Shown: in pieces, positions 5,163-26,895 of the stretch
Layout of the letters: the number at the start of each line of letters is the position of its first letter
How positions within the stretch are numbered: the first letter of the stretch is position 1
Assembly (NCBI GenBank): GCA_017516075.1
Contig: JAFWDS010000011.1
Span: 1-49,420, forward strand
Length of the DNA: 49,420 bases
Source of the DNA: Candidatus Saccharimonadota bacterium
GTDB lineage: Bacteria > Patescibacteriota > Saccharimonadia > Saccharimonadales > Saccharimonadaceae
Direction: 5' to 3'
Program-made: the position numbers and the translations under genes
Notes under the pieces: generated by a model
Databases searched by the model: none
What the model saw: only the letters and a program-made list of their open reading frames with translations
Told to the model about the DNA's origin: nothing

Positions 5163-6434
5163 ATGAAACATTCAGTGGAGGAAATTACTCTTAAAAATGG
5201 AGCAAAGGGGCTTCTGGTTGATATACCCGGTGCTAGTGTGATGTCGACGAGGATTCAATTCCGAGCGGGGATGATGTACGCGAAAAACAAGGACGTTTAT
5301 GAAATTCCGCACGTGGTAGAGCATTTGGCGTTTGGAGCAAATGCGAAATATAAGGATGAACAGGCATTTGAGGCGGAGTTTACGAAGAATGGTGCATATC
5401 ACAATGCGTGGACTTCTGATATTTCAGTGTGTTATGAGACGGAATGTGCGGATTTTGAGTGGGAAAGAATTATGGATTTGCAGCGCGTGTCGATTTGCGA
5501 GCCGAGGTTTAACGAGGAAGAATTGAAGTCTGAAAAAGCGAATGTGAGGAGTGAGCTGACCGGGTACATGAATGATTATTATCGGCTTTTGTGGCCGCGG
5601 GTACAACAGGCGGTGGGCGAAGATATTTTGGCTTTGCCGGAGAGACTAGAGACGATACGAAATATTGAGCTTAAAGATATTCGTGAACATTATCGCCGGA
5701 CGCATACGGCAAATAATATGATGTTTATTATTGCCGGGAAAATGCGCGGACGTAAACACCGAATTATGAAAATGTTAGAGGAATGGGAACTAAAGGAAGG
5801 GGAGAAGTTTGAAATTCCTTTGTCGGAGCTACATTCTTCGGAAGCAGTGTCGATTAGAAGAAAAGATGCGTCAAATATTACGTTTGGGTTTTCGCTGGTG
5901 ACGCCGAGACATTTAGATTTTACGGAAGTATTCGCAATGAATTGTTTGAATCACATTCTGAATGGTACGACAAATTCGAAGATTTTTGGTGCGGCAAGGA
6001 AACGGGGGCTAGTGTATGGTATGGGCTCATCGGTAGCGTCAAATGCGCATAATTCGTATTGGGATTTTGACGGGGAGGTAAACATTGAGAATGCGGATGC
6101 TTTATTTGAATTAATTCAGACAGAGTTGATGAAAACTCTAAATGGCGAGATACTGGATATGGATTTTTTGGCGGCGAAATCGTATGCGCTAGGTAGGTTT
6201 CAGATGGGTGCGCAAACTGTGGGACAGATTGCGGATTATTATGCGGAGAGCTATTTTACGAACGAAAAATATGAGCGGTATGATAACATGCCAAATATGA
6301 TAAAGTCGATTGATAAATTCAGGATGATTGAATTGGCACGAGAGTTCGCTGGGTCTGGTATCAAGGGTTTTGCCGCAGTGTCGTCAGTTGAAAAAGCGGT
6401 AATTAACGAGTTGGAGGCTAGGTTAAACTTCTAA
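5163..6434 (+). CDS. M16 family zinc peptidase (insulinase/processing-peptidase type)
   Basis: This 423-residue protein carries the inverted zinc motif HxxEH as HVVEHLAFG (H50, E53, H54). A third-ligand Glu is likely about 77 residues later in NVRSEL (E131). The full single-chain layout of two M16 repeats is present, with an active N-terminal and an inactive C-terminal half. No signal peptide is seen, so it is probably cytoplasmic. The substrate is unknown; relatives include PqqL- and YmxG-like processing peptidases. It lies 17 bp downstream of secA and is probably co-transcribed with it. The stop codon lies inside the left arm of a long palindrome shared with the convergent murD. Confidence 0.88.
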   Translation: MKHSVEEITLKNGAKGLLVDIPGASVMSTRIQFRAGMMYAKNKDVYEIPHVVEHLAFGANAKYKDEQAFEAEFTKNGAYHNAWTSDISVCYETECADFEWERIMDLQRVSICEPRFNEEELKSEKANVRSELTGYMNDYYRLLWPRVQQAVGEDILALPERLETIRNIELKDIREHYRRTHTANNMMFIIAGKMRGRKHRIMKMLEEWELKEGEKFEIPLSELHSSEAVSIRRKDASNITFGFSLVTPRHLDFTEVFAMNCLNHILNGTTNSKIFGAARKRGLVYGMGSSVASNAHNSYWDFDGEVNIENADALFELIQTELMKTLNGEILDMDFLAAKSYALGRFQMGAQTVGQIADYYAESYFTNEKYERYDNMPNMIKSIDKFRMIELAREFAGSGIKGFAAVSSVEKAVINELEARLNF

Positions 6435-6627
6435 TAGGCAAATTGTGAGCGGTCGACTTCACGCCGCGTTAATTTTTACAACATTTCACTCAGTCCTCAC
6501 CTCGATCAAGTCGCCAGCTCGCTCGCGCATGGCGCTCGCTCGGCGACTTTACTCGTCTCGGACGAGGAAAGGTTGTAAAAATTAACCGGGTTCGTCAAAT
6601 GCTCACAATTTGCCTATTAGAAGTTTA
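6424..6627. repeat. 204-bp palindromic element between convergent M16 gene and murD
   Basis: Outer arms at 6424-6450 and 6601-6627 are perfectly complementary over 27 bp. Inner arms at 6468-6482 and 6572-6586 are perfect over 15 bp. A GC-rich core between them holds AAGTCGCC / GGCGACTT and CTCGT / ACGAG hairpins. The left arm contains the M16 stop codon and the right arm is the murD C-terminal coding sequence (KLLIGKL and stop). It may serve as a bidirectional terminator; as structured DNA it looks like an insertion of the type also seen in dus and after rpsH. Confidence 0.85.
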
Positions 6628-7829
6628 TACTGGTCTCCGCGGTCGTAGACGTTTTTGAACATGTCGAACGAGGCGGCGGAGGGGGACATGAGGACGATGG
6701 CGGTATCGTATTTTTCAGCTTTTTTACGAGCGGTGCTTACAGCTTCTTCTAGTGATTCTACTACGGTGAAGCGGGTGTCTTGATGGCGTTTGGCGAGTTC
6801 GTGGCCGGATTCGCCCATTAAAATGACATCTTTAATCTGAGGGGCTTTTAAGATTTCGTAGATTTCTGGGAGGTCTTGATAATCGGTTTTGTCGCGACCG
6901 CCGATGATGACTATTAGATTGTCGTCTGGGAAAGAATTGACAGCAACGCGAGTAGAAGATGGGTTGGTGCTGAAATTATCATCGTAATACTTGACATGGT
7001 CTAATTCGCGGAGAAATTCAAGGCGATGAGGGAGACCACGGAAGCTTCTCAGACCTTCAATAATAGTAGATTGGTGCTCACTTAAATATTCGTCTGGTGA
7101 TATATTGTAATAGCAGGCGACGGCGGCTATGGCGGCGATGGCGTTTTCTAGATTGTGGGTACCGGGTAGATGGATGGATTTTTTGACGTCTTCTGGAACA
7201 TCAAATGGATAAGGAATTTTGTGGGCTTTGGATGATTTGGCGATTTTGGTGGTGTCGGAGTTTTTGGAATAGTAGACTAAGTAGTCATCTGGGGTTTGAT
7301 ATTTGGTGATGTGAGATTTGGCGTCTAGATAGTCTGCCATGTCTTTATGGACATTGAGGTGGTCGGGCTCTAGATGGCCGATGACGGCGATATGAGGAGA
7401 TTTCTCTAAGTCCCAGAGTTGAAAACTGGACATTTCGTAGACGACAACGTCGGAATCTTGGAGATCATCGAGGATGTCGATGGCTGGGGCGCCGATGTTG
7501 CCGATGAGGTGGACATTTTCGCCTTCGGTAGCGAGAATAGATTCTATGAATGAACAAGTGGTACCTTTGCCTTTAGTGGCGGTGACGCCAATGATGGTGC
7601 AAGGGCAATGATCAAAGAAGTATTTGGTGACGGAAGTTTCGTTTTTGAGATGAAGAGGGGGGACGGAGGGGCTGCGAAAGACGTAGTCGTAGCTCGAGAA
7701 ATCCTTTTGTTTGATTTCTGCGGGGGTGAAGTTTTCGAAAACGTCACATTCGAGAGCCTGATGATGTTTTTTGAAATAGGTTTCTACGGATTTACCTTCT
7801 TGACCGTAGCCGAGTAATGCCATTTTCAT
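6603..7829 (-). CDS. murD: UDP-N-acetylmuramoylalanine--D-glutamate ligase
   Basis: MurD adds D-glutamate to UDP-MurNAc-L-Ala in cytoplasmic peptidoglycan precursor synthesis. The N-terminal Rossmann-like domain starts MALLGYGQEGKS. The ATP-binding loop is GVTATKGKGTT. The central Mur ligase region includes EMSSFQLWDL and LEPDHLNVH, and the C-terminal domain includes DDNFSTNPSS and IIGGRDKTDY. A length of 408 aa is slightly short for the family. Its own -10 box is 7 bp upstream of the ATG. The neighbouring murI supplies D-glutamate, so the pair is functionally linked. The last codons form one arm of the long palindrome. Confidence 0.93.
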   Translation of the reverse strand: MKMALLGYGQEGKSVETYFKKHHQALECDVFENFTPAEIKQKDFSSYDYVFRSPSVPPLHLKNETSVTKYFFDHCPCTIIGVTATKGKGTTCSFIESILATEGENVHLIGNIGAPAIDILDDLQDSDVVVYEMSSFQLWDLEKSPHIAVIGHLEPDHLNVHKDMADYLDAKSHITKYQTPDDYLVYYSKNSDTTKIAKSSKAHKIPYPFDVPEDVKKSIHLPGTHNLENAIAAIAAVACYYNISPDEYLSEHQSTIIEGLRSFRGLPHRLEFLRELDHVKYYDDNFSTNPSSTRVAVNSFPDDNLIVIIGGRDKTDYQDLPEIYEILKAPQIKDVILMGESGHELAKRHQDTRFTVVESLEEAVSTARKKAEKYDTAIVLMSPSAASFDMFKNVYDRGDQYKLLIGKL

Positions 7830-13684: not shown

Positions 13685-15400
13685 ATGGTCATACGGGATC
13701 ATTATTATAGAACAGTAATGATAAGTATAGGTGCGATGTTTGGAGTCATCACTATAGTTGGTGGGATATTAGCTAGTAATCGGGTATTAGCTGATGATAA
13801 TACTTCCGTCGTAGATGAAATAAATATCACTGTCCCAGAATCCTGTTCTATTTCTGGTACTGGTATGGATTCTCATAATGCTAATATAGCTAATGGTATA
13901 TATACTGCAGATATTGGTACTACTACTCTCCACGCATTCTGTAATGATTCTGAAGGCTTTGCTATCTATGCGGCTGGATATACTGGAGATGAGATAGGAG
14001 GGACGAATAGTAATAAGCTAGTAGGAACAACAGCTAGTGGTAATGCCGTAATAGAATCAGGTCTAGCTACATCTGCTGGTAATCCTGACGTATCTAACTG
14101 GGCAATGAAACTAGCTATCACGCAAGATAGTGGTGACATAACTGGCACTAATGCTTATACGATAGATTCTGCACCAAATACTTCTGGTGGTTCTGATGCA
14201 ACCTTTGGTGAGTATCATGTAGTCCCCAATGAATATACCAAAGTCGCTCACAAAACTGCCGCTACTGATATGACCGAATCTACTGGTGGAGTTAAGCTTA
14301 CTACTACCTACGCTGCCTATATTTCCAAAACCCAACCAGCTGATACGTATTCTGGACAGGTCATCTACACCCTAGTTCATCCATCCGATGCTCCGGCTCC
14401 ACAAGTCAGTTCCTGTCAGACCAAAGTCCCAGGTGTCACCTACATGCAAGAATTCGCCACCATGACCACACAAGAAAAAGCTGCAGTTTTAGGGAATATG
14501 ACTGAAGACGCCCAATATGGCATTAAGGACAGCCGCGATAATAAATCCTATTGTGTAGCCAAACTAAAAGACGGCAACATCTGGATGACCCAAAACCTAG
14601 ATCACGATATCGTCACTACAACAAATTACTATACTAATCAAAACACTGACATTGGCTATAATACTTTCACCAGTCAATACGACACTGCTACCTGGACAGC
14701 TCCCAGTGCCACCCTTACAGACACCAACAAAAGCAACTGGGTAGGCTCATATACAATTCCTATGTCTTATGACCCAGGCGACCTTTACTGGAGCGCTACC
14801 GAATCAGACTATAGTGATTGGAACACCTACATGAGTAGCTGCACTTGGAATAGCACTACGCAAAAATACGAAAACTGCGACGAATCACTAAATCCAATTG
14901 CTACATATACAGATACCACTGGTGAATCCCAATATCATCTAGGTAACTATTACAACTGGACTGCTGCTGTAGCTATGAGCGATAGTAGCTCCTATACTAC
15001 GTCAAACGAACTCATAGAACAATCCATCTGCCCAGCTGGCTGGACTCTGCCACGCGTAGGTACTGGTAATGATTCCTTCTATAGCCTCTGGAATGAATAT
15101 GGTTTCACTAGTAGCAGCTACACAGACACTAATAGTAACAACCAATATGACGAAGATGAAGATGCCCTCTGGACTACCCCGCTTTACTCCGCTGCTGGTG
15201 GGTACTTCGTCGGCGTACTAGGCTACGTTAGCGGCTACGGCATCTTCTGGTCGCCAGTTGTAGATAGTAGTGACTTCGCCAGGGGCGCGTACTTCAACGT
15301 GGTTGGCGACGTCTTTCCTTCCTTTTGGGTCAATCGCGACTACGGCAATTCCGTCCGCTGCGTTGCGCGTCCCGTAGCGTCATCGGTTAGTGGTCTGTAG
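13685..15400 (+). CDS. FISUMP-domain surface protein C with hypervariable C-terminus
   Basis: This 571-residue protein has a signal sequence unrelated to that of A and B (ISIGAMFGVITIVGGILAS), followed by the same VDEINITVPESCS domain and the same FISUMP domain. Much of the middle is nearly identical to A at nucleotide level. The last 70 residues diverge sharply, then the conserved ARPVASSVSGL tail returns. Mosaicism (new signal, shared core, variable tail) suggests recombination among paralogs. AAAAGGA precedes the ATG at about 10 nt spacing. The 3' end overlaps the convergent dus by 14 bp. Confidence 0.84.
   Translation: MVIRDHYYRTVMISIGAMFGVITIVGGILASNRVLADDNTSVVDEINITVPESCSISGTGMDSHNANIANGIYTADIGTTTLHAFCNDSEGFAIYAAGYTGDEIGGTNSNKLVGTTASGNAVIESGLATSAGNPDVSNWAMKLAITQDSGDITGTNAYTIDSAPNTSGGSDATFGEYHVVPNEYTKVAHKTAATDMTESTGGVKLTTTYAAYISKTQPADTYSGQVIYTLVHPSDAPAPQVSSCQTKVPGVTYMQEFATMTTQEKAAVLGNMTEDAQYGIKDSRDNKSYCVAKLKDGNIWMTQNLDHDIVTTTNYYTNQNTDIGYNTFTSQYDTATWTAPSATLTDTNKSNWVGSYTIPMSYDPGDLYWSATESDYSDWNTYMSSCTWNSTTQKYENCDESLNPIATYTDTTGESQYHLGNYYNWTAAVAMSDSSSYTTSNELIEQSICPAGWTLPRVGTGNDSFYSLWNEYGFTSSSYTDTNSNNQYDEDEDALWTTPLYSAAGGYFVGVLGYVSGYGIFWSPVVDSSDFARGAYFNVVGDVFPSFWVNRDYGNSVRCVARPVASSVSGL
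15209..15364 (+). other. Hypervariable 3' segment of FISUMP gene C (DGR-type variable region candidate)
   Basis: Relative to A and D, substitutions cluster in the first two bases of NNC/NNT codons. The preceding stretch around 15170-15208 is essentially identical between A and C. The downstream CGCTGCGTT is shared with D and could be the site where cDNA integration starts. Confidence 0.6.
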
Positions 15401-16454
15401 TATTATATTGTTCAGATAATAGAGTAGAATTTAGGATTTTTCTGGCTTCTTCGACGGAGTGAGTCTCCATCAGTTTGGTGCGGAGGTCCTTCGCGCCAGG
15501 GAAATTGTTGACGTAGATTTTGAAGAAATGCTTTAAGGATTCGTAAGGAATATGAGAATGGGGTTTCTCGGAACGCTCCTTCGCGCCCTCGCTCAAGGGA
15601 CTCAGTCGCTCCGCGTTTGCCACGTTGGCAAACATGCTCCTCGAAACCTCATTCTCATATTCTTCATAAAGCTCCAGATGCATTTTTAAAAGCTCCATGA
15701 GCTCGGCTTGCGAGGGGGTGTGGTCGGTGAAGCAGTAGGGGTTGGCAAAAACGCCGCGGCCGATCATAAAACCATCGACTTCGGGATATTTTTCGTGCAG
15801 CTCGAGGGCGTGGGTGCGGTCCTTGATATCGCCGTTGATAATTAATTTGGTTTCTGGGGAGATTTCATCACGAAGCTTATTAATTTCAGGGATTAGCTCG
15901 TAGTGGGCTGGAACTTTGCTCATTTCTTTTTTGGTGCGAAGATGTATAGTGAGAGCGGCGGGATGTTCGGCGAGTAAAACAGGGAGCCAGGTTCGGAACT
16001 CTTCCGGGTCAGACCAGCCGAGACGAGTTTTGACAGACACTGGTAGCTTAGTGCTCTTGCGCGCATTATGAAAACACTCTACGGCGAGGTCTGGGGTTTT
16101 GATCATGGCGGCACCGCCACCGGTGCGATTGACATGCTTGTCGGGGCAGCCGAAATTGAGGTCTACCCCTGAAAAGCCGAGAGATTCAAGCGCGGAGGCA
16201 AGTTCCGAAAAATGTTCGGGGTTTTTGCCCCAAATTTGTGCGATAATCGGAGAATCTGTGGGCGCTACCTCTAAACGCTCCAAAGCATTCCAACGGCCTT
16301 TTTCGGAGGCATAAGAGGAGACATTGGTAAATTCCGTGAAAAATAGATCTGGGCGTCCGGCTTTTGCGATAACCTGACGAAACATGATGTCGGTAACGCC
16401 TTCCATGGGGGCCAAAATTAGAAATGGTTTCGGTAAATTTTGCCAAATATTCAT
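15387..16454 (-). CDS. dus: tRNA-dihydrouridine synthase with an in-frame palindromic insert
   Basis: This flavoenzyme reduces uridine to dihydrouridine in tRNA. The TIM-barrel FMN motifs are visible: LAPMEGVTD (about 14-22), the catalytic Cys in LNFGCPDKHV (C103), VKTRLGW, and NGDIKDR plus GFMIGRGVFANP. It is 355 aa from ATG 16454. An earlier ATG at 16478 overlaps the TATAAT box and is rejected. In the helical domain about 30 residues (VSRSMFANVANAERLSPL to AKERSEKP) look foreign. They are encoded by a palindrome (15548-15662) that keeps the frame open. Confidence 0.92.
   Translation of the reverse strand: MNIWQNLPKPFLILAPMEGVTDIMFRQVIAKAGRPDLFFTEFTNVSSYASEKGRWNALERLEVAPTDSPIIAQIWGKNPEHFSELASALESLGFSGVDLNFGCPDKHVNRTGGGAAMIKTPDLAVECFHNARKSTKLPVSVKTRLGWSDPEEFRTWLPVLLAEHPAALTIHLRTKKEMSKVPAHYELIPEINKLRDEISPETKLIINGDIKDRTHALELHEKYPEVDGFMIGRGVFANPYCFTDHTPSQAELMELLKMHLELYEEYENEVSRSMFANVANAERLSPLSEGAKERSEKPHSHIPYESLKHFFKIYVNNFPGAKDLRTKLMETHSVEEARKILNSTLLSEQYNTTDH
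15548..15662. repeat. 115-bp palindromic element inserted in frame within dus
   Basis: Arms 15548-15567 and 15643-15662 are complementary at 19 of 20 bases. Inside lies a perfect 8-bp hairpin (GTTTGCCA / TGGCAAAC, 15615-15633) and a GC-rich, ERLS-encoding core. There is no stop or frameshift in the dus frame. This behaves like the Rickettsia palindromic elements known to sit inside coding regions; the relationship is by analogy only. Confidence 0.75.
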
Positions 16455-16460
16455 ACTGCC

Positions 16461-16466
16461 ATTATA
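16461..16466 (-). promoter_or_regulatory. dus -10 box
   Basis: TGGTATAAT on the minus strand is 6 nt from the ATG at 16454, which implies a leaderless message. It is divergent from the promoter of the metalloprotein gene at 16489-16517. Confidence 0.55.
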
Positions 16467-16488
16467 CCATAAAAACATGGTTTAAGCA

Positions 16489-26040: not shown

Positions 26041-26442
26041 ATGTCATTACAATCTACTGATCAAATCGCCGACCTGATTACCCGTATTCGTAATGCGGTA
26101 ATGGTAGGCAAGAATGAAATCCTCGTCCCGACTTCTAAGTTGAAGGCTGGGGTGGTTGATGTGCTGGCCAAAAATGGTTATGTGGCTAAAGCTGAAATAG
26201 TTGAAGGTGAGCCACGTGCTATGCTTAAGGTCACTATTAATGAACCCGGTATGGTTGCCAAAATCAACGAGATTTCAAAGGTATCTAAACCTGGTCGTCG
26301 AGTTTATTCTTCGGCTGAAGATTTGCCGACCATTAAATCTGGACGTGGTATGATTATTGTGTCTACCTCGAAAGGTTTGATGACTGGCAGAGAAGCCAAG
26401 AAAAATAGACTTGGTGGCGAAATTTTAGTTAAGGTTTGGTAA
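26041..26442 (+). CDS. rpsH: Ribosomal protein S8
   Basis: S8 organises the central domain of 16S rRNA. The 133-residue protein shows the S8 start (DQIADLITRIRNAVMVGKNEI), SKPGRRVYSSAEDLP and the C-terminal GRGMIIVSTSKGLMTGREAKK. It is the last gene of the cluster. rplF, rplR, rpsE, rplO and secY, which normally follow, are absent. The stop codon lies in the left arm of a palindrome. Confidence 0.97.
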   Translation: MSLQSTDQIADLITRIRNAVMVGKNEILVPTSKLKAGVVDVLAKNGYVAKAEIVEGEPRAMLKVTINEPGMVAKINEISKVSKPGRRVYSSAEDLPTIKSGRGMIIVSTSKGLMTGREAKKNRLGGEILVKVW

Positions 26443-26604
26443 AACAATAGCTTGCATTTCTCAACGATGAAATGCGCGCCAAGATAAAAAATACAACACT
26501 CGTCGGATTGTTTCGGAAATTTCAGTTTCCTCAACAATCCGGTGAGTTGTATTTTTTATATGGGCGATTTCATATGTTTCGAAATCGCAAGCTATTGTTT
26601 TACC
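26438..26604. repeat. Cloverleaf-like palindromic element at the end of the ribosomal operon
   Basis: Perfect 18-bp outer arms (26438-26455 and 26587-26604) include the rpsH stop codon. Inside are three hairpins: GCATTTC / GAAATGC (26454-26475), a long central stem (26486-26512 with 26533-26557, continued by GGAAA / TTTCC), and GCGATTTC / GAAATCGC (26564-26588). The central stem is flanked by an A run and a T run and would work as a bidirectional terminator. Confidence 0.85.
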
Positions 26605-26895
26605 TAATTAAACAAACTTATCATTATCAAATGCTGTTCGAAAAATAGTTTTCTGCCACTCGCTTTTTTTATTTGCTAAGATCCCATATGTTTCAAAATC
26701 GAGGTTAATACAAAAAATAGTCGGAAAAAGTGTGATTTTTTACATTTTTTCCGCGAAATTAATGTGCTTATGTTGCACTAATTCTCATGTGAATTTGGTA
26801 TGGATGATTAATTCTAATTAAATAATTAGGTTTTACTGATTGGTAGAACTTGTGCTATGGAGTTATTTAATAACTATAATGTGACATTAGGTGGA
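26605..26895. other. AT-rich intergenic region with small hairpins
   Basis: No gene is seen. CATATGTTTC followed by AAAATCG at 26688-26703 echoes a piece of the preceding palindrome. A hairpin CGGAAAAA / TTTTTTCCG lies at 26722-26753, and a 16-bp palindrome CTAATTAAATAATTAG lies near 26815. This looks like decayed palindromic material plus the 3' side of FISUMP gene D. Confidence 0.5.

Follow-up and report, generated by a model that had tools for sequence, protein, structure and literature searches.

The closest known kind of repeat to the one described here is the Rickettsia palindromic element, RPE (PMC2229807, PMC10969869, PMC2635572). In the descriptions drawn on here, RPEs are palindromes of about 105-150 bp that fall into several families, are fused in frame into the reading frames of conserved protein genes and also occur between genes; a review gives their terminal inverted repeats as 12 bp and lists the target duplication as unknown (PMC2229807, PMC10969869). 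Rickettsia guanylate kinase has been compared in activity with and without its insert. Coding palindromes are known from Rickettsia and, going by a cited title alone, from Wolbachia. Palindromes inside coding genes, with both arms encoding protein, also occur in the mitochondria of Nematomorpha, and template switching has been proposed for them; in contrast to the elements treated below these are perfect repeats of up to 284 bp, and the account consulted describes no shared mobile core (PMC6649704). YPAL/RU-2, ERIC and other bacterial MITEs are similar in being short, non-autonomous, hairpin-forming repeats, some of them inside genes, and YPAL targets sites at or near dyads. According to the partial accounts used for this comparison, they mostly make target site duplications, whereas an inverted duplication is proposed here and a direct one was not noticed. 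A search of open-licence papers turned up no account of elements of this kind in Saccharibacteria or elsewhere in the CPR.

The palindromic insert in dus

The window, that is the whole stretch of 49,420 nucleotides analysed, contains a dus gene for a tRNA-dihydrouridine synthase (positions 15387-16478, minus strand, 363 amino acids, NCBIfam DusB). The gene is host to a palindromic element at 15548-15662 on the same strand, delimited by its pairing, its fold and a covariance model match, which is read through in frame (the SRSMF...RSEK frame). The original prediction of a genuine palindrome at this place was borne out. The element folds with -58.9 kcal/mol on the coding (minus) strand, compared with -32.8 +/- 3.5 kcal/mol for shuffled sequences (z = -7.4), and none of 200 shuffles was equally stable. 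The further claim that it is an in-frame insert causing no frame break also holds, as the dus frame is open across the palindrome and the alignment with DusB (E 7.7e-43, residues 21-351, score below the curated cut-off) runs in a single stretch across it. In an AlphaFold2 model of the protein (28-sequence alignment, mean pLDDT 69) the insert lies between two helices of the C-terminal part, residues 288-308 forming a low-confidence loop (pLDDT below 50).

The element consists of a core and two arms. The 5' arm (15643-15662, the GAGG side on the coding strand) is specific to this locus and pairs with the 3' arm (15548-15567, the CCGA side), its inverted partner. The arms match at 19 of 20 bases (95%), as had been claimed; when 25 nt are taken on each side (15548-15572 and 15638-15662) the complementarity is 88%. 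The common core of about 75 nt (15568-15642, GAGGAGC...GTTCCGA), defined by its copies found with blastn and by the consensus fold, is predicted to form a three-way junction. The 8-bp internal hairpin noted earlier is present as hairpin 1 of the core (15615-15633, GTTTGCCA/TGGCAAAC) in both the single fold and the consensus fold. Hairpin 2 (15583-15601) was identified from the consensus fold and the comparison of copies, most other copies reading CCCGTAACGACGGG. In the alignment of five copies the consensus fold of the core is backed by compensatory changes.

Copies, host genes and distribution

The genome to which the window belongs has 923,922 bases (0.92 Mb) in 37 contigs. With the 115-bp stretch as blastn query, four further copies were found in it, 77-89% identical to the dus core; all align to the core (query positions 17-99) and none to the arms. 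All five copies are on the coding strand in long open reading frames, those of dus, a P-type ATPase, ArgS (two copies) and an RlmD/TrmA-like methyltransferase, and they are translated in two different frames (SRSMFADVANAERPSPVTTGARERSEK and EEHVCRRGKRGATEARDDGPEGAFRR). The covariance model R1 was built from these five copies. It matches the window copy, itself one of the five in the model, at 15546-15664 with 126 bits, and it has 34 matches in this genome in all.

The reading frames were surveyed for the best 30 of the 34 matches, the four weakest being without a locus. Twenty-seven of these copies lie within one open frame of 197-853 amino acids, 13 in sense and 14 in antisense orientation, and three are without such a frame. 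The 26 frames run against NCBIfam (the 27th is the same argS frame) include 23 that match a named family and three without a match at 1e-8. The hosts are Dus, IleS, TruB, PheT, QueA, MnmA, LeuS, Tgt, AlaS and ArgS (two copies), and also UvrC, TlyA, DnaX, PolA, LigA, TopA, a RarA-like ATPase, the RlmD-like enzyme, a lipid kinase, a PseC-like aminotransferase, the P-type ATPase and a TIGR01177 methyltransferase with two copies in one gene. The host list alone gives the impression of a striking richness in tRNA-, rRNA- and DNA-processing enzymes.

On average 2.7 of the six frames are open across such a copy. The chance of finding 27 of 27 open in a random register is therefore about 10^-10, the length of the frames not yet being counted; this favours translation, and selection of insertions that can be tolerated. 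An insertion would mostly persist if it leaves the host frame open, and the element would then be translated as about 30-40 extra residues, probably in a surface loop or linker. The likeness in kind to RPE that had been suggested is thus upheld, in that a 115-bp palindrome is present in many copies in one genome, in frame in unrelated conserved protein genes. Genomes of less than a megabase carry tens of copies, in essential enzymes acting on tRNA and DNA, and an epibiont whose genome is tiny tolerates such loops in its core enzymes over and over again.

The occurrence of the family in a CPR lineage was also predicted correctly, and its matches extend across one genus of Saccharibacteria, parasitic bacteria of the gut. 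Named relatives other than Ca. Nanosyncoccus alces are Saccharibacteria MAGs, and a source, if stated, is mostly a ruminant. Among 40 relatives including the window's own genome (E 0.1), R1 matched all 24 genomes of the same genus, with 1 to 34 matches each (a single weak one in G002), and none of the 16 genomes from other families of the order. A search at E 1e-6 with stricter filters covered 294 genomes drawn evenly from the order and matched 38 of them, 37 from the same genus and one from another genus of the family; among the genomes listed without a match six belong to the same genus, and 236 further genomes had no match. This is an apparently independent case of protein-coding palindromes in a phylum other than that of Rickettsia.

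Locus-specific arms and shared insertion sites

In every aligned copy the core is flanked by two arms of about 20 nt, paired within the copy and different in sequence between copies. The arms are thus specific to the locus and not part of the element consensus, a point absent from the original prediction. Because R1 contains arm pairs, the arms were retested with core-only blastn searches of 80 dus loci and the window. All 18 matches, one of which is the window's own copy, had paired arms with scores of 12.5-17, compared with a median of 4 and a 99th percentile of 8.5 at random places. For the same reason the R1 matches lean towards paired arms, and the 103 of 105 copies that score above the 95th percentile of cross pairs are not independent evidence; independent evidence is given by the own-genome blastn and the core-only blastn. 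The 105 distinct copies were obtained from 112 R1 matches, the seven dropped being repeats in overlapping loci save for one weak match (L215:920). In the 21 pairs among these 105 copies whose cores are at least 95% alike, the similarity of the arms is mostly near chance (median score 6, background median 5). The clearest example comes from G003: the copies L054:4523 and L054:1619 lie 3 kb from each other, their cores are identical and their arms unrelated.

Set against the direct target-site duplication and transposon-like termini of a MITE with a known transposase, the element has mostly fixed ends (GAGG...CCGA) and flanks whose repetition appears inverted rather than direct in the sites compared. 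The arms have weak base preferences, being A-rich at positions -13 to -10 with TTTC adjoining GAGG; this count comprises 75 of the 105 copies, those at the dus site and those without recognisable ends being left out. Extra bases are found at preferred distances from the core, 12-15 nt in the GAGG-side arm (46 of 91 gap events) and 7-8 nt in the CCGA-side arm (29 of 76), and 16 of the 105 copies have no extra arm bases.

A second family with the same kind of arms is found at 6413-6638 of the window, between two convergent genes, as identified by palindrome search and blastn. Its inner stem (6468-6487 and 6567-6586) belongs to the element, while the outer arms (6413-6457 and 6594-6638) are specific to the locus. 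Three more copies in the same genome are 76-87% identical. The inner stem (GTTAATTTTTACAAC and close variants) is common to all four copies, and the outer arms, read by eye, are different in each copy and pair with one another within it. A similar case is found at a gene end at L182:8785-8943. The suggested common origin of this element (6424) and the dus element was not supported: R1 has no match at 6424 even at E = 10, and the two are alike in their host setting, with locus-specific inverted arms, but not in core sequence. That an unrelated core bears the same footprint suggests a process of general nature and not a quirk of a single element.

The dus site is an insertion hotspot. The 80 dus loci fetched from other species, together with that of the window's genome (G000), give 81 frames, all of which are open through the site. 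It is filled in 25 of the 81 species (114-189 nt between the flanking motifs) and short in 56 (45-78 nt). Neither of the two observations that would have spoken against the original reading was made: the segment is missing from the Dus of most relatives (the site is short or empty in 56 of the 80 species fetched), and the core does have other copies in the genome. The fillings belong to different families and are found in both orientations. R1 finds 16 of them in the 80 loci, four in antisense (L151, L165, L167 and L180), and a longer element family occupies the same site in L124, L125, L127, L130, L145 and L170. Shared insertion sites are also present in ArgS, LeuS, ValS, PolA and the RlmD-like enzyme. 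This reoccupation of the same protein sites across species contrasts with RPE. A third palindromic type (CCCCCAAAATTTTG stems, CGACGGGT...ACCCGTCG ends) was seen in L289, L297 and L299, and a sister species holds a type-1 element at those sites.

Filled and empty sites were compared with respect to which arm is native. The dus site alone was rejected for this comparison since its nearest empty relatives, about 81% identical, are too distant, and a trio of closer genomes was used instead. At the very end of dus, L160 has an element with another core (TGAGGACC...GTCCGAA). Its GAGG-side arm is the dus C-terminus, EARKIIS, for which L132 has EARDIIGV, and its CCGA-side arm is beyond the dus stop, with nothing similar in L132. 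The GAGG-side arm in gyrA of G312 encodes KPEELS, and two empty orthologs have KPEETS and NPEETS. L125 and L127 have CAATTCCCACAAATATT in dus where the empty L152 has CAATCCCAAAAATATT, and the comparison of L157 with L201 in LeuS leans towards one native arm too. In obgE the filled gene of G310 exceeds the empty one of G312 by 114 nt, which is more than a core and one arm (about 97 nt), and neither arm is clearly native. The gain at the dus site is about 90-102 nt, and the right arm of G000/L197 resembles the empty site of L160. A model with one native arm is likely but not proven from these alignments, as several of the comparisons fit it and obgE does not. At sites shared by close relatives both arms diverge more than the flanks, which indicates that arms at one site are also being turned over or formed anew.

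Origin of the arms and other repeats

The main reading, to which a probability of about 0.7 is given, is that of a mobile palindrome of about 75 nt, non-autonomous, which has proliferated in Saccharibacteria of the Ca. Nanosyncoccus group, combined with an inverted copy of the host flank. Insertion would take place without the usual direct target duplication. Instead, about 20 nt of host sequence next to the GAGG end would reappear, inverted, past the CCGA end (X-E-X'), and this arrangement would leave each copy within a hairpin of its own. The second arm would be copied from the host flank at or soon after insertion. The preferred, hypothetical means is that the hairpin primes or guides a template-switched repair synthesis which copies the flanking host strand, by analogy with the template switching proposed for the coding palindromes of nematomorph mitochondria (PMC6649704). 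The elements would thus work like RPE, with an apparent inverted target duplication. Chances are about equal for and against the broader proposal of a class of mobile DNA defined by such a duplication, in which about 20 nt of host flank are copied, slips of one base being favoured near 7 and 14 nt, and at least two unrelated cores share the process. We know of no transposition that results in an inverted target duplication. The mechanism can be put to the test, because relatives offer both filled and empty sites and the insertion leaves a clear footprint.

Two other accounts of the arms are both rather unlikely, to about the same degree. The element may insert armless, with arms forming later by correction or extension of imperfect palindromes through template switching, or by selection for a hairpin. 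Some empty sites do have partial dyads, and the arms of L133 and L156, at the same site and with cores 97% alike, differ at several positions, with the changes on both sides; upkeep of palindromes by template switching is also discussed for the nematomorph mitochondrial palindromes (PMC6649704). Copies with identical cores nevertheless already bear full and different arms, and the core-only matches were paired without exception, with no armless young copies seen. The arms may also serve as a recognition site by their structure: a hairpin-recognising enzyme, like that of integron attC sites or of IS200/IS605, would recombine the folded single strand, with the extra bases as marks. Integron attC sites and IS200/IS605 ends function as folded strands with bulged bases, and the preferred places of the extra arm bases agree with this. 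Base frequencies, however, are without conserved outer boxes of the attC kind, the recognition site alone does not explain why arms vary by locus, and no such recombinase is linked to the elements here. Y1_Tnp (PF01797) was found in none of the 24 genomes of the genus and in seven of the 16 others, and mobilisation by a Y1 transposase of the REP/RAYT or IS200/IS605 type was rejected on this ground. A reverse transcriptase was rejected as mobiliser because RVT_1 is absent from G000, the genome with most copies, and no element is beside the five examined; RVT_1 is present in 16 of the 24 genomes of the genus and in one of the 16 from other families of the order. The five RVT_1 proteins examined (L239-L243) are weakly group II-, DRT- or retron-like. 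The searches for these two protein families thus identified no mobilising protein.

It is very improbable that the insert is taken out of the RNA or passed over by the ribosome, as an intron-like or bypassing element would be. The strong hairpin and the location in essential genes would suit such a process, but it would not need frames that are open and in register, as they are in all 81 dus loci examined and in 27 of the 30 own copies; moreover, no Rfam match was obtained at E 1 (L204 1400-1720) and the literature search gave no close parallel for ribosome bypassing. Descent or transfer of a true RPE family is still less probable. The size class, the palindromic structure, the in-frame position and the presence of several families are shared, as compared by description. 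The phylum is another one, though, the elements are confined to one genus of the order save for one genome, and six insert peptides had no match at E 10 in NCBIfam, a library that includes RPE models. RPE arms are part of the family consensus, unlike the locus-specific inverted copies seen here, which differ even between identical cores. A palindrome due to chance, or an old loop found in dus alone, has a negligible probability and is refuted by the other copies, the fold, the open host frames and the spread through the genus.

Other palindromic repeats were seen in the window and in related loci. At 26435-26607 of the window, just after an open reading frame ending at 26442, there are nested palindromes with outer arms of 21 nt (95%) and inner arms of 36 nt, which have no blastn relative in the 80 dus loci. 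L140:13747-13915 is an intergenic tract of repeated short hairpin-like units around GTACAG, and it is longer than in L156.
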